A DNA stretch of 64,000 nucleotides from assembly GCA_018661705.1 (NCBI GenBank), contig JABJHR010000011.1:124001-188000 (forward strand), given 5' to 3'. Under the pieces are notes generated by a model. The model did not search any database. It saw only the letters and a list, made by a program, of their open reading frames with translations, and was not told the origin of the DNA. A program made the position numbers and the translations under genes. Of the stretch, positions 916 through 39,522 are shown one piece after another; within the stretch, counting starts at the first letter, position 1; each line of letters opens with the position of its first letter. The DNA comes from Candidatus Woesearchaeota archaeon. GTDB lineage: Archaea > Nanobdellota > Nanobdellia > Woesearchaeales > DSVV01.

Positions 916-1275
916 ATGGAAAAAACATTATTTGTAAAAACCCTAGGAGATTCACCAAAGATAAGAGTATTAGATATGCTAATAACTGGAAGAGAGTTAG
1001 ATTATTCAATAACAGACATTGCAGAACAAGCAGGGATTGGAAGAGCCACGTTCTATAGAATGATGAGTGAGATGCTGAAAGAAAAAGTAATTATTTCAAC
1101 TAAAAAATATGGTAACATGCAACTTTATAAACTTAATGAGAAAAATAATACTGTTTTCCAATTAATTAAGTTCTATGATTACATTTGCCATGTAGAGTCT
1201 GAAAGAGAGATTGAAAGACAGAGAAAGAAGGTTTCTGTTAAAGTTAAAAGTTCTAAGAAAGTTAAAAAATCCTAG
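916..1275 (+). CDS. winged helix-turn-helix transcriptional regulator
   Basis: 119 aa; SITDIAEQAGIGRATFYRMMSEMLKEKVI is a typical wHTH; TATA-like AAATATTAG upstream. Confidence 0.7.
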   Translation: MEKTLFVKTLGDSPKIRVLDMLITGRELDYSITDIAEQAGIGRATFYRMMSEMLKEKVIISTKKYGNMQLYKLNEKNNTVFQLIKFYDYICHVESEREIERQRKKVSVKVKSSKKVKKS

Positions 1276-1372
1276 CGAAAAATAGCATTCGCCAGTGTTA
1301 AAGAGTATTACACTGCATGTCACCCCACTAAACTAGGTCCGAAGGACATGTTTCTCACGAATTTTTGTTTTT
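1270..1372 (+). ncRNA. candidate structured RNA, copy A of a three-copy family (5' module only clearly shared)
   Basis: GCGAAAAATAGCATTCGC hairpin, then CAGTGT-TAAAGAGTATT-ACACTG hairpin; shares AAAAATAGCATTCGC and AAGAG loop with copies at 23.6 and 39.4 kb; followed by a T-rich tract. Confidence 0.5.
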
Positions 1373-1467
1373 TTAGAAAAAATTATATTTAAAAAATTCC
1401 AAATAAATACCATTACATAAACACCATATTAAATCAAAAAAGAAATAATAAATTAAAAATCAAACAT

Positions 1468-1743
1468 TTATCCAACTGCCCTTCTAACGTCTATGCACTC
1501 TACTGAGTTAACGCCTTCTAGATTAGTTATTTGAGCTTCTAGTTCTTCCGTTGATCCCTTATTTTCATCCATAACAAAAACTAGGATTAAAGCATTTAAA
1601 CCAAAAGCAACAGGTTCAATTTTTTCTTTACCAACTTCACCGCCAAAAGCAGCAATTGCTTCTTTTGCCTTACTTTTAACACCTTCTAAATCCACTTCAG
1701 GACTAGTTGGCATTAATTTAAACGTGATTATTACATCTGCCAT
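1468..1743 (-). CDS. ef1b: translation elongation factor 1-beta (aEF-1beta)
   Basis: 91 aa; MADVIITFKLMPTSPEVDLEGVKSKAKEAI...EPVAFGLNALILVFVMDE...VNSVECIDVRRAVG. Confidence 0.93.
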   Translation of the reverse strand: MADVIITFKLMPTSPEVDLEGVKSKAKEAIAAFGGEVGKEKIEPVAFGLNALILVFVMDENKGSTEELEAQITNLEGVNSVECIDVRRAVG

Positions 1744-1774
1744 ATTATAACCTCCTTAACATAAAATGAATATC

Positions 1775-1951
1775 TTAATTTGGGCCTTCAAAGCCACAAG
1801 CAGGACATGTATACTTAACTGCCTTAACCCTACAGTCTTTACAACGAATTATTTCGTGTTTTGAGCACTCAGGACACTTAAATTTAACTGAACCAGCCTC
1901 ATTTGCTATCCTTCTGTTACATGAGCCACATTTTGGGTTTTTTTCTTCCAT
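1775..1951 (-). CDS. small zinc-ribbon protein (HVO_2753-like), 58 aa
   Basis: Not in ORF track (<60 aa). Translates as MEEKNPKCGSCNRRIANEAGSVKFKCPECSKHEIIRCKDCRVKAVKYTCPACGFEGPN; four CxxC motifs; adjacent to aEF-1beta as is common in archaea. Confidence 0.85.
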   Translation of the reverse strand: MEEKNPKCGSCNRRIANEAGSVKFKCPECSKHEIIRCKDCRVKAVKYTCPACGFEGPN

Positions 1952-2075
1952 TTGAGTTACCTCACATCTGTTTTATGATATAGGTATGTTTCTAGAGTTA
2001 CTTAAAAAGGTTTGGGTTAAGATAGTTGTTACTTTGGAGTAAAAACAAATAGAAAAACATATAAAGGATGGCATT

Positions 2076-2852
2076 TTGAAGAGAGATATGATTCCAATAC
2101 AAGTAGATCCAACAAATCCTGCATTGTATATGCAAGAAAGCCCAGAAGAAAAAGCAAAAAAAGCATCAGAGGAACTTAAGCAATATTTAGAATTACACAC
2201 ATTTAGTAGTTTTACAGCTGAAGAACAAGAAAGAATAATTAATGATGCGGCAGACCCAGAACATGAAACAATTACTTTAAAACAATATTATAAATTATTA
2301 GGAGTAGATATTACAGAATCAACAATAATTAATGATATGCGAAAAAAAGATCCCATTCTTTGTGAAATTGCATTAGACCTATCCTTACCTAAAGAACTTA
2401 GTGATGTTGTCAGAGACAGAATAGCAGCAATTGAAAAAAGAAATCTTAATGATTATACTTCTGCATTAAATAATGAAACAGGAATTAAAAAAGCCGTTAG
2501 AAGACTTACAAAATATGATTTTAAAACAATTGCAGCATTATTAATTGGTGGAGAAACATATAGAAATGCACAAGCCATAAGATATAAAGAAATGTTGACA
2601 GAAGCTTATCAAACACAACGAAAAGCTTTTGAGGAATCAAAACCAAAAATTGTAGATATATTCTTTAAAACATATCATGATTTTGTAAAGAGATATGACG
2701 TACAAGAGAAAATAATTAAGAGAGAAGTTGAATTAAAATTAGAAAAAATGAGAACTGACCCACAAAGATATTTAGAAGAATTTCTTAATAAACCACCTTG
2801 CCACCACATCAACATGGCATATAATAAAAGAACCACACCATATACTAACTGA
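2076..2852 (+). CDS. hypothetical protein (258 aa)
   Basis: Long ORF in an otherwise open region; start may be TTG 2076 or ATG 2088. Confidence 0.65.
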   Translation: MKRDMIPIQVDPTNPALYMQESPEEKAKKASEELKQYLELHTFSSFTAEEQERIINDAADPEHETITLKQYYKLLGVDITESTIINDMRKKDPILCEIALDLSLPKELSDVVRDRIAAIEKRNLNDYTSALNNETGIKKAVRRLTKYDFKTIAALLIGGETYRNAQAIRYKEMLTEAYQTQRKAFEESKPKIVDIFFKTYHDFVKRYDVQEKIIKREVELKLEKMRTDPQRYLEEFLNKPPCHHINMAYNKRTTPYTN

Positions 2853-3005
2853 AAATAACCACTTACCATTCTGAAAGAATAACAAAAGTATATAAATACA
2901 TATAGATATAAATACAGAAATAGGGGTAATTATATACTACTAATAAGATATACTAATAAGAGATTATTAGGTATAGAAATTAAAGATTACTAATAAAAAA
3001 AGAGT

Positions 3006-5144
3006 GTGGTGATATTTGTGACAAGAGACCTACCTGAACCACCTGCACCTCCAGCAGGACTTACAAAGCAAGATGAAAAAAAAGGATTATTTTCTGGATT
3101 ATTCAATAGAAGTAAAGATGTTTTCAAAGACCTAGACATTGAACCAATAGTAGAAGAAGAAATTCATAAAGATGATAAAAAAGAACTTAAGAAAATAAAA
3201 AAAGAAAAATATAAAGATAAAAAAAGAATTGTTAAAGAACACAAAAAACTTAAAACTAAAAAGATTAGAATTCAAAAAAGACAAAAAATAAAATCAACAA
3301 GAGAACACAATAAAAGAGAAGAATTTCTTAACCATAAAGAAGAAACATTAAAAAGAAAAGAGAAACATTTACAAGATATTAAAAAAACACTTGAAAGAGA
3401 AGAAAAAGAGTTTTTAAGTACAAAAATAAAATCATTAAAAAACAAAAAAAATCATAACAAACTAATTAGAAGCCTACAAGACCATGAAAAAGTTCTAAAT
3501 AAAAGGGCAGAATTAATATCTAAAAAAGAAACACATAAAAAACACAGAGATAAAAGTTTAAAAGAAAAAGGCAAGCAGTTAAAAGAATGGGAAAATAAAC
3601 TCATACAAGAAAAAGATCAAACTGCAAAAACAAAAGCACAATTAGTTAAAGAAGAAAATGCAATTGTTAAAAAAATAGAAATATTAGAAAAATTAATGAA
3701 AGAACAACACGAGGTAGAATACTCAATAAAACAAAATGCAGTCAAACACAAAGACATAAAGCGAAAGTATAACCGACTATTGAATGAAGAGAAAAAGCTA
3801 AAAACAATAAGAAATGACCTTGCTAAAAAAGAAATTGATCTTAAATTGCAAGAAGAAGGAATAATAAAGGCAGAAGCGGATTTAAAAAATAATAAAGCAT
3901 GGTTAGATAAAGAAGAAACCGCTGTCGTAGCAAAAGTAAAAAAACTAGAAGAGTACAAACAAAAAAATGAAATGCTAAAAAAGAAAGAAATTAAACTTAA
4001 AGAAAAAGAAGCACACATCACAAACCTTATGAAAAAAGCACCTATCCTTGAGAAAAAAGGAATAGAAATAGAGAAAAAAGAAAATCACCTTAAATTAATG
4101 ATTGAGGGCTTAAATCTCAGTAAAAATCAACTAAAAAAGGAAGAAACTGCTGTTCTTGGAAGAGTTAGAATCTTAGAAAAAGATAAAAAAGAATTAGAAG
4201 AAAAAGAAGACGAAGTAGTTAAACTAGTAAATAAATTTGAAAAGATTAAAAAAGAAACAGATATAAAAATAAAAAAGTTAAATCAAAAAGAAAAAGACTT
4301 CAAAAGCAAAGAATCAAAATTACACTATTTTGAAGAAAAGTCAAAAGCAATTGAAGAAAAATTAGCTATGAAAAAACTTGAATTAGAAGAAAAGGAAAAT
4401 GAAATGAAATTAATGAGTGCAGACTGGAAAGCAACAAAGATAATGCTTGATAGAGAAGAAAAATCAATTTTAGGAAAAGTTGAAGAACTTGAAGAAGAAA
4501 AAGATGAATTGTTGAAAAAAGAAGCAGAAATTGTAAAATTAGTTGATAAAGTAGAAAGAAACAAACAAAAAAATACAGATAAAGAAAAAAGCATTGATTT
4601 AAAATTAGCAAAGTTAGTTACAGCAGAAGCTCAACACCAGAAAAAGACACAAGAACTTAACAATAGAGAAAAACAAATAATTGTTAAGGAAAATAAAATA
4701 AAAACTAGCCTTGGTGAAATTAAAAAAGTAAAAGGATTAATTGGAAAAAAGAGAACATTAGAAGAAGGAATCAAACGATTGAAAATAAGGTTTAATAAAG
4801 AATTTAGAAAAATTGAAAAACCATTATTAAGAAAAGCAAAAAGAAAACATCAAGAAATGAAAATTAGTAGAAGCATTAAAAAAACCATGGAGCCACTCCC
4901 AAACATAAAAGTTAGAGCAAATATGGCTGGTCCCTTACCTGGTCTTAATCCGGAAATCAACACACAAATAGAGATTGCAAAAAACCATGTGAGTAGAGGT
5001 TTATTTAATGAAGCTAAATCTACAATAATGAAACTTAAATCAATGCAAAAAGCCATGGATGAAAAATTACCAAACAAAAAAGCTCTCTATTATGACATAT
5101 TAGAACTAGAGAATGAGATGAAATTAGTAGAAATCCGACATTAA
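3006..5144 (+). CDS. large Lys/Glu-rich coiled-coil protein (712 aa) with internal repeats
   Basis: Heptad-type charged composition; repeated [W/Q/M]LxKEExAvxxkvxxLE motif; distinct non-coiled C-terminal ~75 aa. Confidence 0.8.
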   Translation: MVIFVTRDLPEPPAPPAGLTKQDEKKGLFSGLFNRSKDVFKDLDIEPIVEEEIHKDDKKELKKIKKEKYKDKKRIVKEHKKLKTKKIRIQKRQKIKSTREHNKREEFLNHKEETLKRKEKHLQDIKKTLEREEKEFLSTKIKSLKNKKNHNKLIRSLQDHEKVLNKRAELISKKETHKKHRDKSLKEKGKQLKEWENKLIQEKDQTAKTKAQLVKEENAIVKKIEILEKLMKEQHEVEYSIKQNAVKHKDIKRKYNRLLNEEKKLKTIRNDLAKKEIDLKLQEEGIIKAEADLKNNKAWLDKEETAVVAKVKKLEEYKQKNEMLKKKEIKLKEKEAHITNLMKKAPILEKKGIEIEKKENHLKLMIEGLNLSKNQLKKEETAVLGRVRILEKDKKELEEKEDEVVKLVNKFEKIKKETDIKIKKLNQKEKDFKSKESKLHYFEEKSKAIEEKLAMKKLELEEKENEMKLMSADWKATKIMLDREEKSILGKVEELEEEKDELLKKEAEIVKLVDKVERNKQKNTDKEKSIDLKLAKLVTAEAQHQKKTQELNNREKQIIVKENKIKTSLGEIKKVKGLIGKKRTLEEGIKRLKIRFNKEFRKIEKPLLRKAKRKHQEMKISRSIKKTMEPLPNIKVRANMAGPLPGLNPEINTQIEIAKNHVSRGLFNEAKSTIMKLKSMQKAMDEKLPNKKALYYDILELENEMKLVEIRH

Positions 5145-5179
5145 AATTAAACTTGTTAAGAGTTAGTATTTTTTTAATC

Positions 5180-6235
5180 TTAGCATTTAATAATCTTTTT
5201 TTCTTTATTTATATCAAATTTCTTATCAAGAAACTTTTCAGTTGTAGAAATATTTGTTAAAGTATGATTACTAATTGAGCTAGTTTTAATTTGTCCACCC
5301 ACTACACCCAAAAAAGGAATTAAATTGTCAGCAAGATGAACATCTACTGAACAATCTGAATTTATCTCACTAATTAATTTTACAGCTGCTTCTTCACCAA
5401 TTTTTTCTGATTTTTTACCTTTTTCTCCCAACACATCACTTCCAAGACGAACATTAACTACTGTTTCTTCTACTAATTTAGACTTAAACAAAGCCCACAA
5501 AACAACACCAGAACCAATGGATAAAGAATTGTTATATTCTAATTCAATGTTTATATGAGGATATTTATTTAATTTTTCTTTTAATGTTCTAGATGCAGAC
5601 TCTGCTTGTCTTTCTGCAACATTTGCGTTCATTAATTCCTGTGATGCAAAACTTTTCCCAGAAATATGCAATAAATCTCCCTGTTCAATTAAAGAAAGCT
5701 CTGGAAAAACATCTAATTTATGTGGTTTAATCCTAATTTCTACTATTCCACCACCCTTTGGATAAAATCCTCGCTTAAGTAAATTAATTTCAAACTTAGC
5801 AAAGCCACTTAGAGAAGAAATAATAATTTCCCTAAAATAATCAAATAAAGGAGACCATTTTGTATCTGTACCACCAATTATTTTTAATTTTGTAGCTTTT
5901 CCATGAAAGATTAGAGGTAATAACAAAGATTGTAATAATAATGTGATTGAACCTGACGTTCCAATATCTATTTCAATCTTGGATTTTGTTATTTTTGCCG
6001 GATAAAACTCTAAGGATGTTGAACCTAGTTCCGCACCAATAGCCTTTGCCTTGTCATTAGTTAACTTCAAAAGAGCTTTTATACAACTAAGATGTTGTGC
6101 CTTTAATCCCGGTTTTGGCCTTCCCTGCCTAATATTATCAACCTTAAAAGGCCTTTGTGTGTACATGGAAAGAGCTAAAGCTGTTCTAATTATTTGGCCA
6201 CCACCTTCTAAATATGAACCATCAATAGTTATCAT
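5180..6235 (-). CDS. rtcA: RNA 3'-terminal phosphate cyclase
   Basis: 351 aa; MITIDGSYLEGGGQIIRTALALS...RPGLKAQHL-type motif, FYPKGGG. Confidence 0.93.
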   Translation of the reverse strand: MITIDGSYLEGGGQIIRTALALSMYTQRPFKVDNIRQGRPKPGLKAQHLSCIKALLKLTNDKAKAIGAELGSTSLEFYPAKITKSKIEIDIGTSGSITLLLQSLLLPLIFHGKATKLKIIGGTDTKWSPLFDYFREIIISSLSGFAKFEINLLKRGFYPKGGGIVEIRIKPHKLDVFPELSLIEQGDLLHISGKSFASQELMNANVAERQAESASRTLKEKLNKYPHINIELEYNNSLSIGSGVVLWALFKSKLVEETVVNVRLGSDVLGEKGKKSEKIGEEAAVKLISEINSDCSVDVHLADNLIPFLGVVGGQIKTSSISNHTLTNISTTEKFLDKKFDINKEKKIIKC

Positions 6236-6347
6236 ACAAAAAAGAAAAAGAATTAACTATAAAAAACTATTGGAGAAAAACCTAAAAAAATTAATATTAA
6301 CAGTTAAAATAGTAATAATAAGAATAAAAATAAAGATTTAAAAATTA

Positions 6348-9300
6348 TTATTCTTCATGATGTTTTATTTTTTCTTCTTTCCTAATAAGATAAAATAATG
6401 CACCTAACACAAATAATATTGCTGTTAAACCAACAAAACTACTTGAACCTTTTCTTCCGCCAAATAATTTTGTGAAAGCTTGTCCTACTGTATCACTATC
6501 TTCTTCTTCTGCAATAATTACTTCTGGTTCTTCTTCATCTTCTGCTGTTAATTCTTCTTCAATTATTACAACTTCTTCCTCTTCTTCTACTTCTTCTTCT
6601 TCGTCATCAGAAGCTTGGTTTTCCCAACTTGCAAGAACTTCTTGAAGTGATGGTCCTTCGTCTTCAACTTCTTCTTCAACTTCTTCTTCAGCAGTAGGAT
6701 AATCATCACTACCACCACCAGTTCCAGGACTAGCAGCAGGCGAACTACTACCAGGAGTAACTGCTTTATACGCAGAAAATCCTAAAGTGTTAGGAACTTT
6801 ACAAGTTAAAGTGGTTGCACTTGATACACAATCTAGATATGTTGTAACATCAACACAATTAGTTACACCATCAATATCACAGTGTTGAATAGTTGTTCCA
6901 GATGTTGTAATTGCCCAACTAATTTCAACAAAGTCAGGACTTAAATCAAATAATAATTGATCCCAAACTGATGAATTCATACCAATAAGGTTAGAAGAAC
7001 CTTCGCATACAAATCCTGTGAAATCAACATTTTTAGCAGACTTAATATCTGCATTTACAAACTTCATAGAATAACCACTATCTGAACAATCAACAGTAAT
7101 GTTAATATTTTTTGCATCTGAAACATTAATGTTTGTTGCATAATCTTGACCTTCTGTTGCCCAAGGTGTTTTTACTGTAAATCCTGAAGGAGCATTCATA
7201 TCAAACTGGAATGAAGGTTCAGATGCTTCTGTTGTGAAATTAGAACATGCACTAACAGCACAATTACCGTCTGGGTCACATACCTTATATTTATAATAAT
7301 AATTTGTTGAGACACTCAAATTATAACCTAAAGCATAATAACTTCCATCAAAATTATCAATAAAGCCTTCATGCCATAATTTATAATCATCATAAGCACA
7401 CCAATCACCATTACAATAAGGATCTCCAATATCATAAATAGTAGTATTCACATTGTAACAAGTACTATCGTTGTGATAAAAAGTAATTGTTCCATTTGCT
7501 GGCTCATTAGTATCAAATTTAATAAATGCTCCATCATGGAATGTATCTGCATTATGGAAGATTACTGAAGGAGCAGTTGTGTCTGTACCAGAAGCTGTAA
7601 AGTCTAACATACCACCACAACCACCAGTTGGTTTAAAAGCACATAATGGATCATCACAGTCTGTTAAACCATCACCATTATTGTCAAGATTATCATCACA
7701 AACTTCTGCAGGGATGTAACCAAGATTATTAATAAATTTACAATCATCGTCTTGACTAGGTAAAGAACCATCACCATCTGCATCTACAAAACCAAAACAA
7801 TCTTCTTTCATAAAATCAAATGATCCAGGAGTATAATAAAAAGGACCAGCTTCATCTGTTGGAACTGTTTCATTAAAATCATTAGCAACAGTAGCAACAA
7901 ATAGTCTTAAATTAGCTGTTGAAATTCCAAAGTCTGCTTTAGTAAACATCAAAACACCAATGCCATTAAAAGTTCCAAAGTCTGGTGAACCAGGAGATGG
8001 AGTTGCAAAACAACCTTCTTCCATTGGAGTTAAAGTTGCGCTCATTGTTGTCCAAGTATCAGCGTCGGAATCAGTACATCTAAACGCAGCTGTTGTTTTT
8101 GTTACAGAACTTCCATTATATAACGCTTGAACAACAAGCTTATAATCAAAACCATCATATGTACCATTAGTAGCAGGACAACCACTTGAAGCATTATTAT
8201 CAGTATCTAAATACCTATAAATTGTTGCATTACTTGTACCACCTAATTTATTATTACAAATTGCAGACCCTGTTAAATCCGTCATTGCAACACCAACATC
8301 CATATTTTGAGGGTTATTCATCAATGTAACTTTAATAATATCTAAGTGGTCATTCACAGCATTAACACCTATATTGCTTCCACCAGGTGGTGTTGCAGGA
8401 GCATCATTAGCTTCATCCTCACCAATTCCTTCTGGTGGTTTACTCATATCAAAATTACCTTTCATTTGTTGATCCATCATAGGGTCACACCAGAAACTTT
8501 CAGAAGCACTTTCAGGGGCTGCATGCCAATAACATACTTGAGTTTCATTCATGTGGACAGGTAAAGAAGTATTTCCTCTATGTGAACCATTGTAACTAAA
8601 TTCATAATCTACAACAGTTGCTTCACAAGCAGATTGATTAACATCATCATATGAATAACAAATTTCTTGTTCTGTTCCTGGAGGTAACATCATTCCACCC
8701 ATGGTTCCAAAACCACCTTCAAAGCCCATACCAAAACCACACATTGGATCCATTGAACAATCATCATCTGAACATCCATCTAAACCATCTGAATCTTCAT
8801 CCCCTGGAACAAAACAAAGTTCTGGAGTTGTTCCATTTACAATACATACCCACATTCCTTGACCTGAAAATGGATCACTAGCATATTCATTTGTCCAATT
8901 ATGACCATTGTTCTCACAATTATCTTGGCCCATACAAGGTAACGCATTTGTTGCATTACAAACATTAGCTGCAGCTAAAGCAGCAGGATCACACCATCCT
9001 GGACCAAAGCCCATTGGATCATTTACCCAAGTACAACTTGCACCACTACCTGAGCACATAGCATCATTAAAACAATTAAAGCAACTATCATCACAATTGC
9101 CACCACCAAAGAAACTCATTGCTGCAGGATTATCACACCAACCCCATTTACCATCTGGCTGTTGTGTTCCACCAAAAGTAACAAATTGACAATCACTACC
9201 ACCAGCTGCTGAATTTTCACAAGCTGATTGTGCAGCTGCTAAATTAGCCCAGGCTTCTCCTGTGTCTTGTTGTTCACAAGCCCAACAAGCATTACTGCAA

Positions 9301-16208: not shown

Positions 16209-16256
16209 TGTTTTTTTGTTTTTTTATTAGCTTTGTCCTATACTAAGCTATTTTCA

Positions 16257-23632: not shown

Positions 23633-23795
23633 AAATCCCAGTGAAAAAATAGCATCCGCAATTTTTTAAGAGCACCATAATTTAGATTTTAGTACAAAAA
23701 ACAACAATCTGGCCAGGCGAACCGAAGGTGTATGGATTTTTTGAACATAGTGAAAAAAAGTCCGTCTGTGCCATAATTGTTGTTGCTTATTACAT
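23633..23795 (+). ncRNA. candidate structured RNA, copy B of a three-copy family
   Basis: AGTGAAAAAATAGCATCCGCAAT...TTAAGAG plus long hairpin AACAACAATCTGGCCAGGCG...CGTCTGTGCCATAATTGTTGTT; matches copy C. Confidence 0.6.
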
Positions 23796-23849
23796 AGTTT
23801 ACATTAACAAATCAAAAATTATATAATAACCAAAAAAAAGAAAATAACC

Positions 23850-24179: not shown

Positions 24180-25121
24180 ATGGCAAAAGATGATGAAAAA
24201 GGACCCATAAGATTAATTCCAAGGATGTCAATGAACACAATAGGTGGGATTACACACGATAGTGGCGTTGTTATGATTTTACCAATCGCACCAGAACAAA
24301 GAAAAGAACTTGAAGAAAAACTAGCGTGGGGACCAAAGAGAGAAAGAGAAGAGATTCTTGAAGAAGTAAAAGCAACACCTGAAGAAAAAGCAGCTATGAA
24401 AAAGGATTTTCTTGAAAAAGAAGTTGTAAAAGCTTATCAAGGAATGCTTAAACACTATGATGATAGAATAAAAGCAAGAGAAAAAGGAGAAACAACACAA
24501 CCATTATCAGATATTTGGAATGACCAAGCAAAAGAAGGTTTTTCTAAAGATGATAAAATAATGGTCAAATATAAAAAACGTAAAAGAAGACCGTTTAAAT
24601 GGAAAACTACTTTCTTAAGTCCTTCTGTTTTAGAAGACATGGCCAATGCAAAGAAAAAGTTAGGAACAGATTTTAGTTTAGGAATTAGAGAAACAGATGA
24701 AGCAAAATATTATGCTTTAATTGATCTTGGAATGAAAGCAATAAAAACATACATGTCCGATGAATCTTTACGAACACTAAAAGATAAAACAGAAAGAGAA
24801 GAAGCTAAATTTATGATTGCACACACTTATTTTGCAATGTATGTCTTAGATGAACATATGAAAAAAGAATATTATGAAGTATTTGCACAGATAGCTAAAC
24901 ATGGAAGAAACTCCAGACACAAAGAAACACGAGACCTTGCAAAAGATGTGGGAGAATTAAGAAGAGTATATGCAATTTCATTTAAACAAGGTTATGGACA
25001 ACAGTATATTAGACGTTCAAGTAAAATCCTAGAAGAAATGAGAAAAACACAAGGAGAAAGAATGGAAGAATTAACAGGAGAAGTTTACAGAGAAGAAAAA
25101 AGAACTACAACAGAAAAGTAA
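24180..25121 (+). CDS. hypothetical protein (313 aa), alpha-helical
   Basis: ORF with clear coding composition; GGTGTAAAA upstream of ATG. Confidence 0.75.
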   Translation: MAKDDEKGPIRLIPRMSMNTIGGITHDSGVVMILPIAPEQRKELEEKLAWGPKREREEILEEVKATPEEKAAMKKDFLEKEVVKAYQGMLKHYDDRIKAREKGETTQPLSDIWNDQAKEGFSKDDKIMVKYKKRKRRPFKWKTTFLSPSVLEDMANAKKKLGTDFSLGIRETDEAKYYALIDLGMKAIKTYMSDESLRTLKDKTEREEAKFMIAHTYFAMYVLDEHMKKEYYEVFAQIAKHGRNSRHKETRDLAKDVGELRRVYAISFKQGYGQQYIRRSSKILEEMRKTQGERMEELTGEVYREEKRTTTEK

Positions 25122-25124
25122 AAT

Positions 25125-25288
25125 GGTTTTAAGTAATGAGTCTTGAGTTCTGAGTGAGTTATCAGTAAGTAGTTATGAGCATGACTATATTTTCTCAATA
25201 CTAGTTTCCCCAGAACCAACCCATTACCCACAACTCAAAACCCATAACCTTTATCTTATTACTTCTAACTTAGAACTACTTACTATTT
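25125..25288. repeat. inverted heptad-repeat element R1
   Basis: Left arm GTTTTAAGTAATGAGTCTTGAGTTCTGAGT; right arm (reverse complement) GTAAGTAGTTCTAAGTTAGAAGTAATAA...GTTTTGAGTTGTGGGTAATGGGTTGGTT; 7-nt periodicity. Confidence 0.65.
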
Positions 25289-26605: not shown

Positions 26606-26715
26606 AGAAATAGTAAAGAGAATGTTGTTAATATATTTGATTGTTAGTTTTTTGAAGGATTTCCGACGAGAATCGGAAGATTTACGTCATCAAAACGGAA
26701 AAGTTAGGGGACAGA

Positions 26716-27423: not shown

Positions 27424-27500
27424 GATATTAGTGTAGATTAAAGTCTATTTAATGTTTTTCTTTAACAAGTTTTTTATACTAAAATAACTACCCTATAACC

Positions 27501-27749: not shown

Positions 27750-27750
27750 A

Positions 27751-27895
27751 TTAAAGTTTTGAGTAATGGGTCTTGAGTTCTGAGTTGGTTTTCAGTAAGA
27801 AGTTTTGAGTGTTGCTACCATCCCCACAACTAATTTACACATAACCAACCCATCACACATAACTCATAACCCATAACCCTTATTTTTCATTAACT
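27751..27895. repeat. inverted heptad-repeat element R2
   Basis: GTTTTGAGTAATGGGTCTTGAGTTCTGAGTTGG; right arm reverse complement GGTTATGGGTTATGAGTTATGTGTGATGGGTTGG. Confidence 0.65.
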
Positions 27896-27924
27896 ATTTA
27901 AATATTGAATTCTTCAACATTCCT

Positions 27925-29859: not shown

Positions 29860-29908
29860 CCCCTAAGAGCCCCCACCCAATAATACAGGTTTTTGAATAG
29901 GATTAAGT

Positions 29909-30643
29909 CTAGAAAAACTTCAAATAAATCAAATAAACAATCAAATAATTCAACATTAATGATGGCAACATAATTAATACCCATTTAAAGAAATTATATT
30001 TTGTAAGGCCTACTACAAAATTAAAAAGAGGATATGGTAATGGGAGGAGATGCATAATAAAGATTGCATAAGCCCCATATTTGTGTAACCTTTGTTGTAA
30101 TGCTTTTCTTGTTTTCCTTTTGATAAGCGGACGTATCAAAAACCCTAAAAACCTACCTAACATAAAATTTATACATTGCCCCGTGAAAACACCCAACAAG
30201 GTAATGAAATATATTATTGGAAAGGTAAAACCTTTCTTAAGAAAACCAAAATATACAAACTCCAATGGGAATGGCAGAAAAAATAATGATGAAAATGAAA
30301 ATAAGTAATATATTCCTTGTTGAGACTGAGATGAAATCTGATCAAAAACGTGTTGGAACATAGGATAAACATAAGGTAAATCTTTTATCCATGTTACTAG
30401 ATTAAAACCATAGAAAAAATAAAGCAAATTCATCAACACCCAAAAAAAGAAACCTGCCAAAGCAATAAAAAATAAAGCAATTAGTTTTTTCTTCATGTCC
30501 CTTGCTAATTCATCTGTTTTCTTAGCTAATTTTTTAGTGGTTTCACTAGTTTTTTGCTTAATCCTAGAAGTTGTTTCAGAAATATCATCTGTAATCTCCT
30601 CTGCTTTCCTTTTTAACTTCTTATGTGCTTCATTAAAAACCAT
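29909..30643 (-). CDS. VTT-domain (TVP38/TMEM64, DedA-like) membrane protein
   Basis: FPLEFVYFGFLKKGF...GQCINFMLGRFLG...HKYGAYAIFIMHLLPLPYPLFNFVVGLTKYNFFKWVLI. Confidence 0.75.
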   Translation of the reverse strand: MVFNEAHKKLKRKAEEITDDISETTSRIKQKTSETTKKLAKKTDELARDMKKKLIALFFIALAGFFFWVLMNLLYFFYGFNLVTWIKDLPYVYPMFQHVFDQISSQSQQGIYYLFSFSSLFFLPFPLEFVYFGFLKKGFTFPIIYFITLLGVFTGQCINFMLGRFLGFLIRPLIKRKTRKALQQRLHKYGAYAIFIMHLLPLPYPLFNFVVGLTKYNFFKWVLIMLPSLMLNYLIVYLIYLKFF

Positions 30644-30687
30644 AAGAAATACTAAACAGAAGGAGTATAAATAACTTATTAATTAAT

Positions 30688-30862
30688 AGTATGAAGTAGT
30701 AAGTATTAAGTTTGTAGTGGGATTAAAAAGGTAATAAAGATTAGAAGGGTTTTAAGGATTAGAAAGGTAATTGTATTCCTTTCAAACCTTTCCTACCTTT
30801 AGAACCTTTTCCACACCTATTCCCACTTCTTACTTAGAACTTAAAACTACTTACCTAAAATT
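30688..30862. repeat. inverted heptad-repeat element R3
   Basis: GTATGAAGTAGTAAGTATTAAGTTTGTAGTGGG; right arm reverse complement GTAAGTAGTTTTAAGTTCTAAGTAAGAAGTGGG. Confidence 0.6.
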
Positions 30863-31372
30863 TTAATTCAAATGCCTAATTCTTCCTTCACCATTAATTT
30901 CTTTAATATAATCAAATACGGGATTAGGAACCATTTCCTGCCAATCTTCCTTGTTTGTTATCTTAAATCTAATCTCTGTAGAACTAACACAGTTTATTCT
31001 TTCTTTCACCCATTCAACCTTATCTTCTGCTTCTTCAAATAATCTTTTTGTTATTTCTGAGCCAGTATAAACAACATCAAATTTTAAGTTTGCCATTGAA
31101 ACATGTTTTTTAACATGATTTACCCATTGACCATAATCATTAATATCTGGAACTTCAAGAATTTTATAATTTACAATTTTTTCACTTGCCATTGTTAATT
31201 CAATCATTCTTCTTCGCTCGCTTACAGAAAAGGGATTAACAACTGAGTTTTCATGTTGTGTAGAACCAATTACAATAATTACAAAACTATGTTTTTCTAT
31301 TATCTGCTTAATTACAGCTAAATGCCCATTATGAAATGGCTGAAATCTTCCAATGAATAATGCTGTTGTCAT
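30863..31372 (-). CDS. nadM: nicotinamide-nucleotide adenylyltransferase (archaeal type)
   Basis: ALFIGRFQPFHNGHLAVIKQI...IGSTQHENSVVNPFSVSERRRMI...SSTEIR. Confidence 0.92.
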   Translation of the reverse strand: MTTALFIGRFQPFHNGHLAVIKQIIEKHSFVIIVIGSTQHENSVVNPFSVSERRRMIELTMASEKIVNYKILEVPDINDYGQWVNHVKKHVSMANLKFDVVYTGSEITKRLFEEAEDKVEWVKERINCVSSTEIRFKITNKEDWQEMVPNPVFDYIKEINGEGRIRHLN

Positions 31373-31429
31373 AATATTAGTAATTCCCCTAACAAATTTA
31401 AATGTTTCTAAAACTGCAGTGAGATTTTA

Positions 31430-34400
31430 TCATAATTTAAAAAATAATGATAATTCTAAGAGGTTATTGAGAATATTGCTCTTTTGCAAACCCAAATCCT
31501 CAAAATCATGTTGAGTTATTTCACCTGTTAAAACCCCTACAAAAGTTAAGCCTGCTTTTTCAGATGCAATGTAATCATCTGTATGATCTCCAACTGAGAT
31601 TACTTCTTGTTTTTCAATTCCTTTGGATTTTAAAAACTCAAAAGCAGAGTTAAAACATTCAGGATTTGGCTTTCTTTTTTCTTTAGATTCTGGAGCAACA
31701 ATAAAAAAACCATCAACACCTGGTTTAAATCCTGCTTGTAATAAACGAAGCTCAGCCATTTTAATTCTATTTGTAACAATTATTTGAACAACGCCTTGTT
31801 TATTTAATTTGTTAAATGTATCCAATGCCCCTTTTGTTGGATAATAAGGTATTTGAGGTGCTTTTTCTCGATATTTTTCGAGTACAATTTCCCACAAAGG
31901 CTTTCCAACGTAATCATTTGGATTAGGAAATAATTTTTCAAAAATAACCTCAAAAGGAAGGTTTTTAGATTGAACAACTTTAATTGCTTGCTCAGAAGGT
32001 ATTTTTATTGGTAATGAAATAGTAAGTTCTGTTGCAGTCTTAAGTATTAATTCTTTTACAAATTGATTAGTTGCAACAAGTGTGTTATCTAAATCATAGA
32101 TTACTGCCTTATATTTTTTCTCAGAACATTCTGTTGTTATTTTCTCTTGAGCTGCAATATATTGTTCCCTGATTTTAATAGAAGACTCTGAAGATTCAAG
32201 ACCACAAATACACTCACCAGGAACCTCTATTATCTGTTCTCTTAAAGGTCCAACACTAATTTTTGAAATCTTTAAATTTCCTAGTTCTTCTATTTCTTTT
32301 AAATAATGTTTAGCGTTTAAAGGCAAATCATGATAATTTTTAATATTGGATATATCTTCTTCCCATCCATCAACTTCAACAAAATCATGTGGAACACAAT
32401 TTTGCAAGATATCTGAATTTGCAGGGAAATCTTTTATAATTTTACCTTCTGAATAAATTTCACCATTAAAATATTTTTTTTCTCCAACATATTTATAAGA
32501 ATTGCAAATTTTTAATTTTTTTAATCCACCTAAAACATCTAATTTAGTTATAACTACATATGAACCGTTAATTGCAGAAGCGTGTCTTGCTATAACCACA
32601 TCCTGCCAACCACATCTCCTTGGCCTTCCGGTTGTAGATCCAAACTCATGGCCTTGTTTTCTTAATAATTCGCCTGTTGCATCTGTTAACTCTGTAGGGA
32701 ATGGACCAGAACCAACTCTTGTAACATAAGCTTTGATTAAACTATAAACTTTGTCAACTTTTGCAATACCTAAGCCAGTTTCCAAACCACCAACAGAAGG
32801 GTTGGAGGAAGTAACAAAAGGGTATGTACCATGATCAATGTCTAACAATAAACCCTGAGCCCCTTCAAGAAGGATGTTTTTTCCTTCGTCGAGTGCTTTT
32901 TTTATCATAACTGTTGAAGAGATTATATGTTTCTGTAAGTTTTCTCCAAATTCAAAATATATTTCTGTCAAAACATCTGAAAAAGTATCAATAGACTGAC
33001 CTTTTAATGAATTTAATTTTTCTTTAACAGAAATATATCTCTCAACATTTGGAACAGATTCAATTAATTGAGAAAAGATTTCTTCTTGAGATTGATTATA
33101 AACATGTTTAAATAATTTGAATTTCTCAATAAGGTTTAATTTTATTTTTTCTTTAAGAATTTTTTTATCAAAAAGATCATTTATTCTAACCCCGACCCTA
33201 TGTGATTTATCTGCATAAGCAGGACCGATGCCCCTTTTTGTAGTACCTATTTTCTTTGAATCACCCTTACTTATTTCTTGAAAATGATCTTGCATCTTGT
33301 GATATAACAAAATCACATGGGCATCTCCAGAGATAAAAAGATTATTAATGTTAAATCCCTTTTCAAATAATTTGTCAACTTCCATAAATAAAACAAAAGG
33401 ATCAATTACCATACCATTGCCTAAAATACAATTTGATTTTTCCCAAGTAATTGCAGAAGGAATTAAATGAAAAATGTGTTTTTCGCCATTAATATAAATA
33501 GTGTGGCCAGCATTATTACCACCTGTTGCCCTTGCAACAACCTCAAAATTCTCTGCAATATAATCAATAACTTTTCCTTTTCCTTCATCTCCCCATTGAC
33601 CACCAAGAACTGCAACAACTTGAGGACTTACAGAATCCATTTGAGGGATTGCTTTTACATTATTGGTTTTTGTTTGTTCCCAATTCTTCAATGCTAACTG
33701 TGTTAACTTAATTGCAGCCCCTAAATAATTTTCAGGAGTTAATGATTTTAGTTTTTGTTTAGTTTCATCTTTTAGTTCCAATTTATCTAAAAAATTATGT
33801 AAATCAACTAAAGAAAATTGTTTACCCCGGGAAAATTCCTTTAATAATTCATAAGGTTGTGAATAGTTTTCTTTTCTCAACAAAGTTTGAATTGCTTCAG
33901 TTAAAATATCTCCTCTGTTCATCAAATCATTCTTCATAACATCTGCATTAGGGGTTAATCTCTCTAAATCTTCAGAGAGATGAAGTAAAGCAATGTATGA
34001 ATGTGCAATGCCCACGCCGATTGCTCTTAAAGCTTCATGATCTGAAAGATCTCTTTGTAATCTAGAAGATTGTAGTTTATTTATGAAACCTAAAAGTTTG
34101 GCATTTGATTCTTGAGTAGAACCTTCTGCTATCTCTAACCGCCAAGGATTAATTTTATGAGGCATTGTTGATGAACCTATTTCACCAGCAATATTTTTTT
34201 GTTTTAAGTAATCTTTAGAAGTATAAAGCCACAAATCAACTGTTAAATCTTTTAAAATATTGTTAATAGAAACTAAAATAGAAAATAGTTTACATAAAGA
34301 ATCATGTGATTCAATTTGTGTTGTTAATAAGTTTGGCTTAAAACCAAGTTTTGTAATAAAATTTTTTGAAAATTCTACCCAATCAACCTCTGGAGATGAA

Positions 34401-35089
34401 AAAACATGAGCATTAAAGTTTCCAACAGCACCATTTAATTTTCCTTTAAGAACAAGTTTTTTTAGAGAAGCATATTCATTTCTTAACCGTTCCAAAAAAT
34501 TTGCTAATTCTTTTCCTAGGGTTGTTGGAGTAGCAGGTTGACCATGTGTTCTTGCTAATAAAGGAACATTAGCGTTTTTCTCAGCAAGATCTGCAATTTT
34601 ATCTAACAAGGTTGTTAAACCAAGCAAATAATGCTGTTCTAATAAGCCCTGCACCATACAATTGATGGCAAGATTATTAACATCTTCTGAGGTTAAACCA
34701 AAATGAATAAATTCTGAGATTTCATGTAAGGATGTGTCTTTTAGTTTTAATTTTAGAAAATATTCAACTGCCTTCATGTCATGGTGGACTGGACCCAGAT
34801 CACCATAACCAAATTGATCAATATTTTGGATGGTTTTTGCATCTTCTAAGTTAAAGTTGATAAAAATATTATTAAGATTTTCTTTTTCTTGTTTTGTAAA
34901 TTGACGTAACGCATTAAAGTTTTTATCTTCTGATAATGCCAACAAATATTGGATTTCAACAAAAATACGGTACTTAAAAAACGCAAATTCTGAAAACCAT
35001 TCAGATAATGGTTCTGTGATAATCCTATGTCTACCATCGATAGGAGAAATTGCTTTAAGGGAATGAAAATGTAAGTCATCTGAATTCAT
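31430..35089 (-). CDS. trifunctional fusion: adenylosuccinate lyase - adenylosuccinate synthetase - HAD-family hydrolase (1219 aa)
   Basis: N-term AISPIDGRH...ARTHGQPATPTTLGKE...GSSTMPHKINPWR (PurB); aa ~484 onward VAVLGGQWGDEGKGKVIDYIA...GATGGNNAGHT-like, VTSSNPSVGG, TTGRPRRCGW (PurA); aa ~990 onward AVIYDLDNTLVATNQ...VISVGDHTDDYIASEKAG (HAD); no intervening stop. Confidence 0.92.
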   Translation of the reverse strand: MNSDDLHFHSLKAISPIDGRHRIITEPLSEWFSEFAFFKYRIFVEIQYLLALSEDKNFNALRQFTKQEKENLNNIFINFNLEDAKTIQNIDQFGYGDLGPVHHDMKAVEYFLKLKLKDTSLHEISEFIHFGLTSEDVNNLAINCMVQGLLEQHYLLGLTTLLDKIADLAEKNANVPLLARTHGQPATPTTLGKELANFLERLRNEYASLKKLVLKGKLNGAVGNFNAHVFSSPEVDWVEFSKNFITKLGFKPNLLTTQIESHDSLCKLFSILVSINNILKDLTVDLWLYTSKDYLKQKNIAGEIGSSTMPHKINPWRLEIAEGSTQESNAKLLGFINKLQSSRLQRDLSDHEALRAIGVGIAHSYIALLHLSEDLERLTPNADVMKNDLMNRGDILTEAIQTLLRKENYSQPYELLKEFSRGKQFSLVDLHNFLDKLELKDETKQKLKSLTPENYLGAAIKLTQLALKNWEQTKTNNVKAIPQMDSVSPQVVAVLGGQWGDEGKGKVIDYIAENFEVVARATGGNNAGHTIYINGEKHIFHLIPSAITWEKSNCILGNGMVIDPFVLFMEVDKLFEKGFNINNLFISGDAHVILLYHKMQDHFQEISKGDSKKIGTTKRGIGPAYADKSHRVGVRINDLFDKKILKEKIKLNLIEKFKLFKHVYNQSQEEIFSQLIESVPNVERYISVKEKLNSLKGQSIDTFSDVLTEIYFEFGENLQKHIISSTVMIKKALDEGKNILLEGAQGLLLDIDHGTYPFVTSSNPSVGGLETGLGIAKVDKVYSLIKAYVTRVGSGPFPTELTDATGELLRKQGHEFGSTTGRPRRCGWQDVVIARHASAINGSYVVITKLDVLGGLKKLKICNSYKYVGEKKYFNGEIYSEGKIIKDFPANSDILQNCVPHDFVEVDGWEEDISNIKNYHDLPLNAKHYLKEIEELGNLKISKISVGPLREQIIEVPGECICGLESSESSIKIREQYIAAQEKITTECSEKKYKAVIYDLDNTLVATNQFVKELILKTATELTISLPIKIPSEQAIKVVQSKNLPFEVIFEKLFPNPNDYVGKPLWEIVLEKYREKAPQIPYYPTKGALDTFNKLNKQGVVQIIVTNRIKMAELRLLQAGFKPGVDGFFIVAPESKEKRKPNPECFNSAFEFLKSKGIEKQEVISVGDHTDDYIASEKAGLTFVGVLTGEITQHDFEDLGLQKSNILNNLLELSLFFKL

Positions 35090-35234
35090 GTTATTTGCAC
35101 CTCACCAAAAATTAAGTGAACCAGGGATTCTTTATTAAGGTTATGGTAAGAAATTTTATCTTAATCTAAAACCGCTACCAAATAGTTACGAATTGAGGTA
35201 GAAAAATGTAAAAAAAAGTGAAAATGTTAAAATG

Positions 35235-36122
35235 TTAAATTATCATCAATACAACGCCAAAAACCATCAAAACTGTTCCAAATAAAACATACCAGAAATC
35301 CTTCCTCTCCTTAAACGCAAAATATGCAATAATTACAGTGAATATTGCAGCAGTTCTTTTTAGTGAGATTATATATGCAACATAAGTCATTGTATATGCC
35401 CAAACTTGAGGAATTATCACACAATAAAAGATTACGGTTGTAAAAATAATCCCTTTCCAATGTCCAATTATGGTTTTTTTTACTTCTTGAGAATATTTAG
35501 TGTAACCATCCTTAAACAAAAGATAAACAGTAAACATAGGCATAGCAATAAAACTATAAAGTACAAGTCTTGTAATATGATTAGAATTTAGTACAATATT
35601 CTTGTCAATAATTGAACCAAAACCATAAATTAAAGCAACAATAAACATAAGTTGTGATCCTTTATGTTTGAAAATTAGGACAAATGGTTCTAAAATATGT
35701 TTATGTTGTTTTGGAGAGTAATTAAGAAAATAAGTTCCAAATACCAATAAAATAACACCTAAAATACCTAACGTAGATGGAAATTCTTTCAATGTAAACA
35801 TTGCCAAAATTAATGTGAAAATTGGTGTTAATGTCAATAACGGAGCTGTTTTTGAAACATTTGAAATTTTTAATGCATGTAAATACATAGGCCTTGTTAT
35901 AACAATTACAACCCCTAAGAAAACCATGAATAATATGGCCATTTTGTTTAGAACAAGATGTTCCCACAGAATAAAAATAAAGGGAAATGCAAATATTGCG
36001 GTAAAAATTAAAACCCAATAAGCAAAATACGTTGGATCTGCATGCCTAATATATTTTTTATTTGCAATATGGTAGAGTGCAAACATAAACCCACATATTA
36101 ATCCAAGTATTAACCATAACAT
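35235..36122 (-). CDS. EamA/DMT-family transporter
   Basis: 295 aa, about 10 TM segments, ALKISNVSKTAPLLTLTPIFTLILAMFTLKEFPS. Confidence 0.8.
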   Translation of the reverse strand: MLWLILGLICGFMFALYHIANKKYIRHADPTYFAYWVLIFTAIFAFPFIFILWEHLVLNKMAILFMVFLGVVIVITRPMYLHALKISNVSKTAPLLTLTPIFTLILAMFTLKEFPSTLGILGVILLVFGTYFLNYSPKQHKHILEPFVLIFKHKGSQLMFIVALIYGFGSIIDKNIVLNSNHITRLVLYSFIAMPMFTVYLLFKDGYTKYSQEVKKTIIGHWKGIIFTTVIFYCVIIPQVWAYTMTYVAYIISLKRTAAIFTVIIAYFAFKERKDFWYVLFGTVLMVFGVVLMII

Positions 36123-36232
36123 AATTTATTTGATGCATCATGTTTTAATAAAGGTTTTCATTATTTGTATTGTTTACTAGTACAAGCACATAGCTAGGCC
36201 CCTTAATTAAATTGTGAAAAATTCAGATTAAT

Positions 36233-37255
36233 TTATTTCAGTTCAAAGAAATACCACATATAATAATCATTGTCAACAGAATTAGCATTCCAAAGAAAGT
36301 GATAACCTTGTAAGTTGTAGGCTTGAGTTGGTTTGTAACAAGCAAGAGCTGCTTTATTATTTGCAGGGCGTGTTTGAATATGATCCAAAGCCAAGACAGG
36401 CATTGGTTGTTTTTTCAAGGTAGAAAGAAGTGTCTTTTGTTCATCTAAATTCTCCCTTAGTTGATACTTATTTAATTCTGAATTGTATCGATAACACATC
36501 TCTTCATATTTGATTGCATCAATAAATGGATAAACTAATGGTAAAACTTCAAAAGCATTGTTAGGAACAACTAAAAGTGTTGGATATGTTTGAGAAATTG
36601 TTCTGATTAATTGATAAACACCTGTTTTATATTCTGGATATTTGTCAACAATATCAACTTGATTAATTATAAAACCATCAAAACCATTGAATTCATCTTC
36701 ACAATTATCTTGAGAACAACTCAACCCCAATAGATAAGGAATCTCAATATCAATAATAGCATTTTGCCATAATTCATTATTAACATCAACCACATACTCT
36801 CCTAAAGGATCATTTTTTGATTTTACTATAACTGTTTTATCTAAATAATTCCAATAATGCTTTGTTTCATCTCCAAAACCAACGTTAAGGTTTGCTAAAA
36901 CAATTGATCCTGATTTTTTAAGATCTTTTAATTTTTCCCCATACATTTCATAAGGATTAACAACAACAACATCAAATCTTCTAAGATCTCTAATACTATC
37001 ATCAGTATAATTAGAGAAAGTATTAACAAAACTTTTAGTATTTGCAAGATTTGCTTTTAATTTAGGTAATTTTACTGTATCTGGAATCTCAACTAATGGA
37101 GTATTTGGTTCCACAGTATCAACTACTTGATCTTGAGAAGAATCCTCAGTATAAACTTTGTAAAACTGCACCCCTACTAATATTAAAAGTACTAATAAAA
37201 CACATATGAAAAATGCTAAAATAATTAGTATTTTCTTCTTTTGATACTTATCCAT
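36233..37255 (-). CDS. GH114-like (endo-alpha-1,4-polygalactosaminidase-related) TIM-barrel protein with N-terminal TM anchor
   Basis: FDVVVVNPYEMYGEKLKDLKKSGSIVLANLNVGFGDE...GFDGFIINQVDIV. Confidence 0.65.
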   Translation of the reverse strand: MDKYQKKKILIILAFFICVLLVLLILVGVQFYKVYTEDSSQDQVVDTVEPNTPLVEIPDTVKLPKLKANLANTKSFVNTFSNYTDDSIRDLRRFDVVVVNPYEMYGEKLKDLKKSGSIVLANLNVGFGDETKHYWNYLDKTVIVKSKNDPLGEYVVDVNNELWQNAIIDIEIPYLLGLSCSQDNCEDEFNGFDGFIINQVDIVDKYPEYKTGVYQLIRTISQTYPTLLVVPNNAFEVLPLVYPFIDAIKYEEMCYRYNSELNKYQLRENLDEQKTLLSTLKKQPMPVLALDHIQTRPANNKAALACYKPTQAYNLQGYHFLWNANSVDNDYYMWYFFELK

Positions 37256-37437
37256 GAATCTGTGTAAAAGACTACCTTATTTAAAGATTATCCGTATAAA
37301 ATATATCTATTGATTAAGCTGTTTTAACTGTAATTAAGCGTAATTTATACAGATTAAAGACATAATAACAATAATATTTATAAAGGCCCTACCAAATCTA
37401 AGATGTATAAGAAACATAAGAAGTGTTAGGTGATAAA

Positions 37438-37836
37438 ATGGGTGAAACCAAATTAGCAAGCGTAGGAAGCTTAAATAAAGGAAATTATGTTGTAGTTGAT
37501 GGTGCTGCATGTAAGGTAAGTGATACTCAAATATCAAGACCAGGCAAACATGGCCATGCAAAGGTAAGATTAAGCGCAGTTGGCTTATTAGATGGCAAAA
37601 AAAGAGTAATTGTAATGCCAGGACATGACAATATTGAAGTACCAATCATTGATAAAAGAACAGCACAAGTATTATCAATTTCTGGTAAAACTGCAAATGT
37701 TATGGATGCAGAAAACTATGAAACATTTGATTTAGAAATACCAGATGATTTAAAGACTGGATGTGTTGAAGGTTGTAACATCTTATTTTGGGTTGTATTA
37801 GACTCAAAAGTTATGAAACAAGTAAAGAGTGATTAA
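37438..37836 (+). CDS. aif5A: translation initiation factor 5A
   Basis: SVGSLNKGNYVVVDGAACKVSDTQISRPGKHGHAKVRLSAVGL incl. hypusination loop PGKHGHAK; start re-placed at ATG 37438. Confidence 0.95.
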   Translation: MGETKLASVGSLNKGNYVVVDGAACKVSDTQISRPGKHGHAKVRLSAVGLLDGKKRVIVMPGHDNIEVPIIDKRTAQVLSISGKTANVMDAENYETFDLEIPDDLKTGCVEGCNILFWVVLDSKVMKQVKSD

Positions 37837-37912
37837 ACTTTAGCAAAAGTAAAATTTTGTAAGGTTTTAAAAACAAAAAGATCATAGAAAAATAATAATA
37901 AAGGCGATAATC

Positions 37913-38074
37913 ATGGTTAAATATGCTGAAGCAGAAGCAAGATTGTTCAAAAATGTATTTGTTTGTAAAAGATGCAAAGTAAAAGTTAGAGCACCTAACA
38001 TGAAAGTCTTAGCTGGAAAAATCAAATGCAAAAGATGCAATGGTAGTTCATTAAGACCAGTTAGGAAAAAATAA
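37913..38074 (+). CDS. rpl40e: 50S ribosomal protein eL40
   Basis: Not in ORF track; MVKYAEAEARLFKNVFVCKRCKVKVRAPNMKVLAGKIKCKRCNGSSLRPVRKK. Confidence 0.93.
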   Translation: MVKYAEAEARLFKNVFVCKRCKVKVRAPNMKVLAGKIKCKRCNGSSLRPVRKK

Positions 38075-38136
38075 TTTTTTACTTTTTAATATTTTTTACT
38101 TCATTTATACAAAATTACACAAAAAGAGGCTAATTA

Positions 38137-39333
38137 ATGAATTTTGAGATAATTATTGCAATAGTATTCGTTGTTCTTATGGGACTAGTTCTATTCTTTA
38201 AACGTAAAAAGTTAGATGTACAAAAAGTTATTTTTCCATTAGTTTATATTATATTGTACAGAACTAAAGTTGGAATTAAATTAATGGATAAGATTGCATC
38301 CAAACACAGAGAATTAGTTAAATTGTTTGGATATATTTCTATTGGTATTGGTTATGTTGGAATCTTTTTTATTTCATACTCTGTTTTAGCATTAATGTCT
38401 AAATTAATTTTCCATCCAGCTGTAACAGAACCAGGGATGATGTTAGTATTACCATTTACTGAAATCCCTGGTCTTGGATTTTTACCATTTAGTGAATGGA
38501 TAATTTCTATATTTGTATTAGCAGTTGTTCATGAATTTGCACACGGAGTTGTTGCAAGAGCACACAACTTAGAAATCAAATCAAGTGGTTTTGCAGTACT
38601 AGGATTATTAGTACCAATCATACCAGCTGCATTTGTTGAACCTGATGAGAAGAAGATGAAAAAACAAAGTGATATTGTTCAATATTCTATCTTAGCAGCA
38701 GGACCTGTTGCAAATATTTTACTTGCTTTGCTCATATTATTAATTACATCATTAGTAATATTTCCAGCAGAAGCATATATTTCAGAACCAGTTGGTTTTA
38801 GTTTTGATTTAATGAATGAAACATCACCAGCTGCACAAGCAGGATTATATGATGGCATGATTGTTGATATGTATAATGATAAAAGAGTTAATAGTTATGA
38901 AGAGTTTATGATTGATATAAACTCGTGTGTTGGAGCAGGAGACAAAGTTAGATTTGGATCTGACAATGAAACCTATATAATAACTACTGGCCCACATCCT
39001 GAAGATGAAACAAAACCATTAATAGGAATTAAAAATATTCAGAATAAAGTAGAAGTTAAAGAACAATACAAATGGTTTTCACCAGTCTTCTTTAAAATCA
39101 AAAGTTTGTTTAAATGGTTATTCTGGCTGAACTTATTAATAGGATTAGCTAACTTATTGCCTCTAGGTATTGTTGATGGTGGAAGAATGCTACAAATTAG
39201 TCTACATAGCATAATTAAAGACAAGAAAAGAGCAAACAAGATCTGGGGTTTTATTGCAGTATTGTTTTTAGTGTTCTTATTGTTTGGTTTATTGGCTACT
39301 TATTTTGGTAATCCTTTTAATTTGTTGGGATAA
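38137..39333 (+). CDS. site-2 protease (M50) family membrane metalloprotease with PDZ-like domain
   Basis: VVHEFAHGVVARAHNLEIKSSGF (HExxH) and LLPLGIVDGGRML. Confidence 0.88.
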   Translation: MNFEIIIAIVFVVLMGLVLFFKRKKLDVQKVIFPLVYIILYRTKVGIKLMDKIASKHRELVKLFGYISIGIGYVGIFFISYSVLALMSKLIFHPAVTEPGMMLVLPFTEIPGLGFLPFSEWIISIFVLAVVHEFAHGVVARAHNLEIKSSGFAVLGLLVPIIPAAFVEPDEKKMKKQSDIVQYSILAAGPVANILLALLILLITSLVIFPAEAYISEPVGFSFDLMNETSPAAQAGLYDGMIVDMYNDKRVNSYEEFMIDINSCVGAGDKVRFGSDNETYIITTGPHPEDETKPLIGIKNIQNKVEVKEQYKWFSPVFFKIKSLFKWLFWLNLLIGLANLLPLGIVDGGRMLQISLHSIIKDKKRANKIWGFIAVLFLVFLLFGLLATYFGNPFNLLG

Positions 39334-39367
39334 ATTCTGTTAATATGATTTAGTTGAAAATAAAGTT

Positions 39368-39522
39368 CTTAGTGAAAAAATAGCATTCGCAATTGTTGAA
39401 GAGATTTACAATTCCGAATGTTTATACAAAAAATAACAGCTTTGGCCAGGCGAGCCATTAGGCGAGTAGGATATTTTCCAAAGGAAAATGTCCGTCTGTG
39501 CCATGATTGTTGTTATTTTTTG
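39368..39522 (+). ncRNA. candidate structured RNA, copy C of a three-copy family
   Basis: GTGAAAAAATAGCATTCGCAATTGT-TGAAGAGATTT-ACAATTCCGAATGT, then AACAGCTTTGGCCAGGCGAGCC...GGATATTTTCC-AAA-GGAAAATGTCCGTCTGTGCCATGATTGTTGTT. Confidence 0.65.

Follow-up and report, generated by a model that had tools for sequence, protein, structure and literature searches.

Interspersed palindromic elements of a Woesearchaeota genome, some of which contain a compensated three-way-junction fold, are probably non-autonomous mobile elements

The window analysed here is a 64,000-nt stretch of DNA from a Candidatus Woesearchaeota MAG of 1.65 Mb that is 92.8% complete. The original prediction had placed three copies (A, B and C) of a candidate non-coding RNA family in this window, and all three sequences are indeed present. 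They are made up of two kinds of unit, a palindrome that we call F1 and a three-way-junction module, and a fourth place in the window carries a further F1 half-unit:

1263..1396, no strand assigned: copy A, an F1 palindrome (self-comparison segment C16:125263-125396)
23636..23673, + strand: 5' block of copy B, an F1 half-unit, recognised by sequence common to A and C
23695..23790, + strand: 3' block of copy B, a three-way-junction module (covariance model R1, 65.8 bits, E 7.5e-14)
39368..39403, + strand: 5' block of copy C, an F1 half-unit, recognised by sequence common to A and B
39427..39520, + strand: 3' block of copy C, a three-way-junction module (covariance model R1, 90.8 bits, E 3.8e-20; fold z -7.0)
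49795..49842, - strand: additional F1 half-unit (self-comparison segment C16:173795-173842; translation)

Copy A has an A-rich left edge and a T-rich right edge, and consists of two inverted half-units with a tiny hairpin in each. It shares with B and C the 5' half on which its membership of the family had been based, but it is a different palindrome (F1) with no 3' block; a covariance-model search of the window found no three-way-junction module in it. The window contains three exact matches to the 5' motif AAAAATAGCATYCGC, and four occurrences if up to two mismatches are allowed, against 0.32 expected by shuffling. In copies B and C, an F1 half is joined to a separable three-way-junction module. 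Their common 3' block folds as had been described, with a minimum free energy of -39.7 kcal/mol for 39427-39520 in copy C; model R1, which was built from 25 sequences with copy C among them and copy B left out, matches B and C and nothing else in the window. As to the claim that A and C follow directly on stop codons, A lies in a convergent gap and overlaps the ORF 916-1275, whose stop codon it contains; C, whose 3' block is also in a convergent gap, begins 35 bp past the stop codon of ORF 38137-39333. Copy B is 3' of no gene, its 3' block lying in a divergent gap between divergently transcribed ORFs. The additional half-unit lies inside the reading frame of ORF 48620-51091 (- strand), where it encodes the peptide EIPSENEHPPVVEE; F1 half-units are likewise in frame within proteins at C12:50909-51680 and C16:210377-210427 of the host genome, where they are translated into peptides like EIPSENEHPPVVEE or PSEKEASAIVEE.

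Far from being a family of three, the 3' block has about 78 copies in the 1.5 Mb of the host genome that was read in stretches and compared with itself, and the 5' block has dozens. This self-comparison gave 226 segments with matches at six or more other places. Apart from a few coding or simple repeats, they are palindromes of several families, amounting to about 200 palindromic segments of various kinds interspersed in the DNA read. Copies A and C each have similar places at no fewer than about 40 sites in the host genome, and the two lists differ. F1 is about 100 bp long, and the tiny hairpins of its inverted half-units have forms such as GTCC-GNA-GGAC, GGC-GGA-GCC and GCC-GNNA-GGC. The module, which also has 53 copies in 0.58 Mb of a sister species (G001), is spread among ordinary genes at about one copy per 20 kb.

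Other repeats were met in the same survey. A palindrome family that we call F3 has about 39 copies genome-wide and occurs in the window at 25116-25284 and 27754-27886, one of these two folding better than most shuffles; its left arm is nearly without C and its right arm nearly without G, and it is made of GAGT-like units. A palindromic repeat pair (AAAGGTT..AACCTTT and CTTCTTACTTAGAACTTAAAACTAC types) occupies 30726-30850, in the gap of two tandem genes. Host contigs C6 and C19 (first 120 kb; L157-L163, L171-L176) are poor in repeats, with about 3-4 segments per 100 kb against 12-40 on most other large contigs, and positions 82576-85089 of contig C1 hold a 2.5-kb coding tandem repeat with units of about GCxDxxAxNFDPxAN.

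The module is a three-way junction of about 90 nt, in which a stem (P1) bears two arms (P2 and P3). In P1, AAAAAATAACAACA..TGGC.CAGRCG pairs with CGTCTG-U-GCCA..TGTTGTTATTTTTT. The first pair of P2 is the one at the junction, C27-G54 (column numbers of alignment A2); two G.A/A.G positions come next, and in some genera (L253, L254, L256) Watson-Crick pairs take their place. P3 is flanked by RTAG on its 5' side and by CGTC on its 3' side. We aligned 25 copies, drawn from the host and the sister species, from a further genus of their family (G005, G008) and from a different family (G095). In this alignment 96.9% of cells pair, two-sided changes are seen at 18 of the 34 pairs, and the covariation score is 0.391 against 0.155 for shuffled data; sliding the partners cuts pairing to 43-56%. 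An order-wide set of 35 copies gives 94.4% pairing, two-sided changes at 32 of 34 pairs and a score of 0.639 against 0.187, figures that lean towards the model because the alignment was fitted to it. The junction pair itself is C-G in 77 of 109 distinct copies, T-A in 29 and some other combination in three. Mismatches are one-sided, with far more G.T than A.C (59 versus 7 in P3, 16 versus 1 in P2), and one strand is therefore the structured strand. C-GNA-G triloops, which are unusually stable in DNA, are common among the copies. Palindrome correction by template switching could generate some compensatory change without selection, but alone it would not give the one-sided excess of G.T or the covariation of the junction pair. 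The evidence strongly supports a real, one-strand, compensated fold, and the expectation that the secondary structure of the 3' block is kept by compensatory change is borne out both in the 25 copies and order-wide. The same had been proposed for the 5' hairpin (CAGUGU/ACACUG in A, CAAUUGU/ACAAUU in C), where it fails: across 27 copies a mean of 4.22 of six positions pair, against 4.26 with shuffled partners.

At a match cut-off of E <= 0.001, covariance-model E-values being rough, the module is found in 57 of 353 genomes of the order, representing 43 of 220 genera, and the sequences outside it differ from genus to genus. A phylum-wide sample of 371 genomes contains 26 with a match, every one of them from this order. 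Exact matches to the 3' block in named genomes are almost all from Woesearchaeota, and the viral contigs searched gave none. One exact match lies on a 3.7-kb contig binned as Hyphomonadaceae (L186, JAIXVM010000275.1), which is probably a misbinned archaeal contig. The original prediction had recognised no known RNA family, and Rfam 15 likewise gave no match in the window at gathering score, with chance-level hits only in a lax search of A and C. Among the papers searched on Woesearchaeota palindromes, archaeal MITEs and REPs, none describes these elements.

Comparison with the sister species, of which 0.58 Mb was read and which, like the other genomes compared, is a MAG, points to movement of the module. 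Among 22 orthologous gaps with a module (median protein identity 68%), six are occupied in both genomes, five in the host only and 11 in G001 only, and aligned gaps differ cleanly in length, by about 100-260 bp. In G001 the gaps that correspond to those of B and C are filled as well, by modules whose outer stem is G001's own. Two copies at the same site in both genomes have arms and loops that are identical or nearly so and are true orthologues; their retention at this protein identity could reflect selection on the copy itself. In another genus (g5; G005 and G008), the module is the core of elements of about 185 bp (183-218 bp) that are bounded by GGCTTCATCCAAAAATT terminal inverted repeats (TIRs) and flanked by target duplications of about 10 bp: at least eight of ten flanking bases match in 8 of the 13 TIR-bounded elements with usable flanks, and over a grid of lengths and offsets none of 300 shuffles gave as good a best match. 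A 112-bp relative without the core (L286) has a perfect 10-bp duplication. A further genome, G003, has at least 36 matches to GGCTTCATCCAAAAATT, many of them in inverted pairs about 166 bp apart, and a single match to the module, so TIR and core appear to be separable; by sequence, the G003 repeats look like a MITE with ends of the G005/G008 type, mostly without the three-way junction. Closely spaced inverted pairs were seen at L242, L249, L259, L260 and L262.

The evidence for a TIR-bounded build comes from G005 and G008, and not from B and C of the window genome. No target duplications above the level of shuffled pairings were detected in the window genome and G001, whether among F1-bounded copies (n=15) or P1-bounded copies (n=13 and 48), and the window genome's own copies may therefore be old or have moved differently. 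A search of G005, G008 and the other genomes surveyed revealed no apparent TIR pairs at a spacing of 1-3 kb, and no autonomous element, parent insertion sequence or mobilising transposase came to light; MAG assemblies often lose multicopy elements.

The placement of the module relative to genes, called as longest ORFs, bears on whether it acts as RNA. Copies in tandem gaps are co-directional with the neighbouring genes 31 times and anti-directional 31 times, a balance that is the sum of two samples and not uniform, since the two genomes lean in opposite directions (27:17 and 4:14); divergent and convergent gaps hold 28 copies each. The fixed orientation to a neighbouring gene expected of a cis-acting UTR RNA is thus not seen, nor is any association of module orientation with GC skew or gene-strand bias. 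Together with the presence/absence polymorphism and the MITE-like core in G005 and G008, this leaves the proposed "small RNA family or 3'-UTR/processing element" unsupported for the 3' block. A multicopy small RNA with its own promoter, spread by duplication and with its fold kept for binding protein or RNA, would account for the strong compensatory change, for the tolerance of G.T (G.U) on one strand only and for the two copies kept at orthologous sites. Nonetheless, we consider it unlikely: there are some 78 copies, whose arms vary greatly and which favour neither orientation relative to genes, a shared upstream promoter is not apparent by eye in the copies printed, and both the target duplications in G005 and G008 and the common C-GNA-G triloops, with their unusual stability in DNA, argue against it. 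It is very unlikely that the elements serve chiefly to end transcription in both directions, or as gene 3'-end elements, and are kept for that function. F1 (18 of 37) and F3 (14 of 39) are enriched in convergent gaps relative to the share of such gaps in gap length (about 13%), and a given convergent gap often holds a different palindrome in the host and in G001, but insertion tolerance would also enrich the gaps of convergent genes, and the module is as common in divergent gaps as in convergent ones, without net orientation. In G001, solo F1 halves lie mostly 7-37 nt past a stop codon, behind a T-rich tract, and those in tandem gaps are in sense orientation in eight of eight cases for form hA and six of ten for form hB. 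A 3'-end role is plausible for F1 from this stop-codon-adjacent, mostly sense placement, and not plausible for the three-way junction.

It is likewise very unlikely that these are REP/REPIN-type elements moved as single-stranded DNA by a RAYT-kind Y1 (HUH) transposase that is missing from the MAG. It would fit the one-strand fold of the module and the closely spaced inverted pairs, and the RTAG just 5' and CGTC just 3' of P3 recall the GTAG/CGTC tags of REPs (PMC3733652). Y1 genes are also commoner in module-bearing genomes (32 of 57, versus 93 of 296 other genomes; p = 0.0008, uncorrected for phylogeny or genome size), an association across the order that is only loose. However, the host MAG has no match to PF01797 (Y1) at its 92.8% completeness, the Y1 loci inspected in G001, G005, G006 and G008 lack the module at their ends, and the tag, which is unpaired in REPs, has its first and last G paired here, in P2 and P3. 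The target duplications in G005 and G008 are a further objection, as they are not expected of single-strand transposition of the IS200/IS605 type. The absence of Y1 from the host MAG and the different ends of the Y1 loci inspected in its relatives led us to reject a RAYT/Y1 origin.

We propose instead that the three loci probably belong to a mosaic of interspersed palindromes that are short, non-autonomous and MITE/REP-like, served by a transposase in trans, with a structured strand that matters; the three-way-junction repeats are best read as a new family of such elements with a conserved single-strand fold. The original prediction had named a match to a mobile element terminus among the findings that would refute it, which comes near to this, except that the block forms the core of an element and not its end; what it observed is real in part, and its interpretation was right in part. 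Under the proposed mechanism, a trans-acting transposase would cut and join the element ends. TIRs with target duplications of this kind are typical of DDE transposition, and from this we infer a DDE transposase in the genus of G005 and G008. Such evidence for transposition does not explain the fold, because an element with TIRs and a DDE transposase needs no single-strand fold. The confinement of the fold to one strand suggests a role for a single strand at some stage, perhaps through its folding as single-stranded DNA or as RNA at recognition, replication or protection. The structural evidence fits single-stranded DNA and RNA alike; given the lack of orientation and the C-GNA-G loops, we lean towards single-stranded DNA. 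The window genome's own copies may no longer be mobile. It is possible, although we doubt it, that the module is a functional single-strand module (single-stranded DNA or RNA) that has repeatedly been taken up by unrelated small mobile elements of Woesearchaeales, as the recognition site of a so far undescribed archaeal recombinase or as a new, MITE-borne RNA, and is not a passive by-product of palindrome growth.

If our preferred reading of the loci as non-autonomous elements is correct, compensatory change has maintained a three-armed fold throughout an order of archaea with small genomes, inside mobile-like DNA and with one strand favoured, and it can then be tested by what enzyme or process the folded single strand is recognised. 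For RNA discovery there is a caution: strong covariation in a repeat family is not, alone, proof of a functional RNA gene.

Several known systems offer points of comparison. Integron attC sites are imperfect palindromes with one functional strand and a variable tip. Module copies, by contrast, lie among ordinary genes at intervals of about 20 kb and not in cassette arrays, and we rejected an attC reading for want of an array. Rickettsia palindromic elements place pieces of palindrome in frame inside protein genes, as do the F1 pieces described above, a likeness in general description. Prokaryotic MITEs (review PMC10969869) are, like the present elements, short, non-coding, multicopy and intergenic. 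The G005 and G008 elements resemble them in having terminal inverted repeats, target duplications of about 10 bp and no ORF. They differ in that the present elements have a three-way-junction core with a fold compensated across an order, in that this core has different outer sequences by genus, and in that no target duplications were seen in the window's own genus. REP/REPIN/BIME palindromes form GTAG and CGTC super-families of 20-40 nt, and the collections surveyed are described as bacterial (PMC3733652). The module is longer (about 90 nt versus 20-40), and has two arms on one stem and partly paired tag nucleotides, and no RAYT was found in its host. Both are dispersed extragenic palindromes with variable arms that carry complementary changes, both occur as inverted pairs and mosaics with some copies inside genes, and RTAG and CGTC flank an arm of the module, P3.
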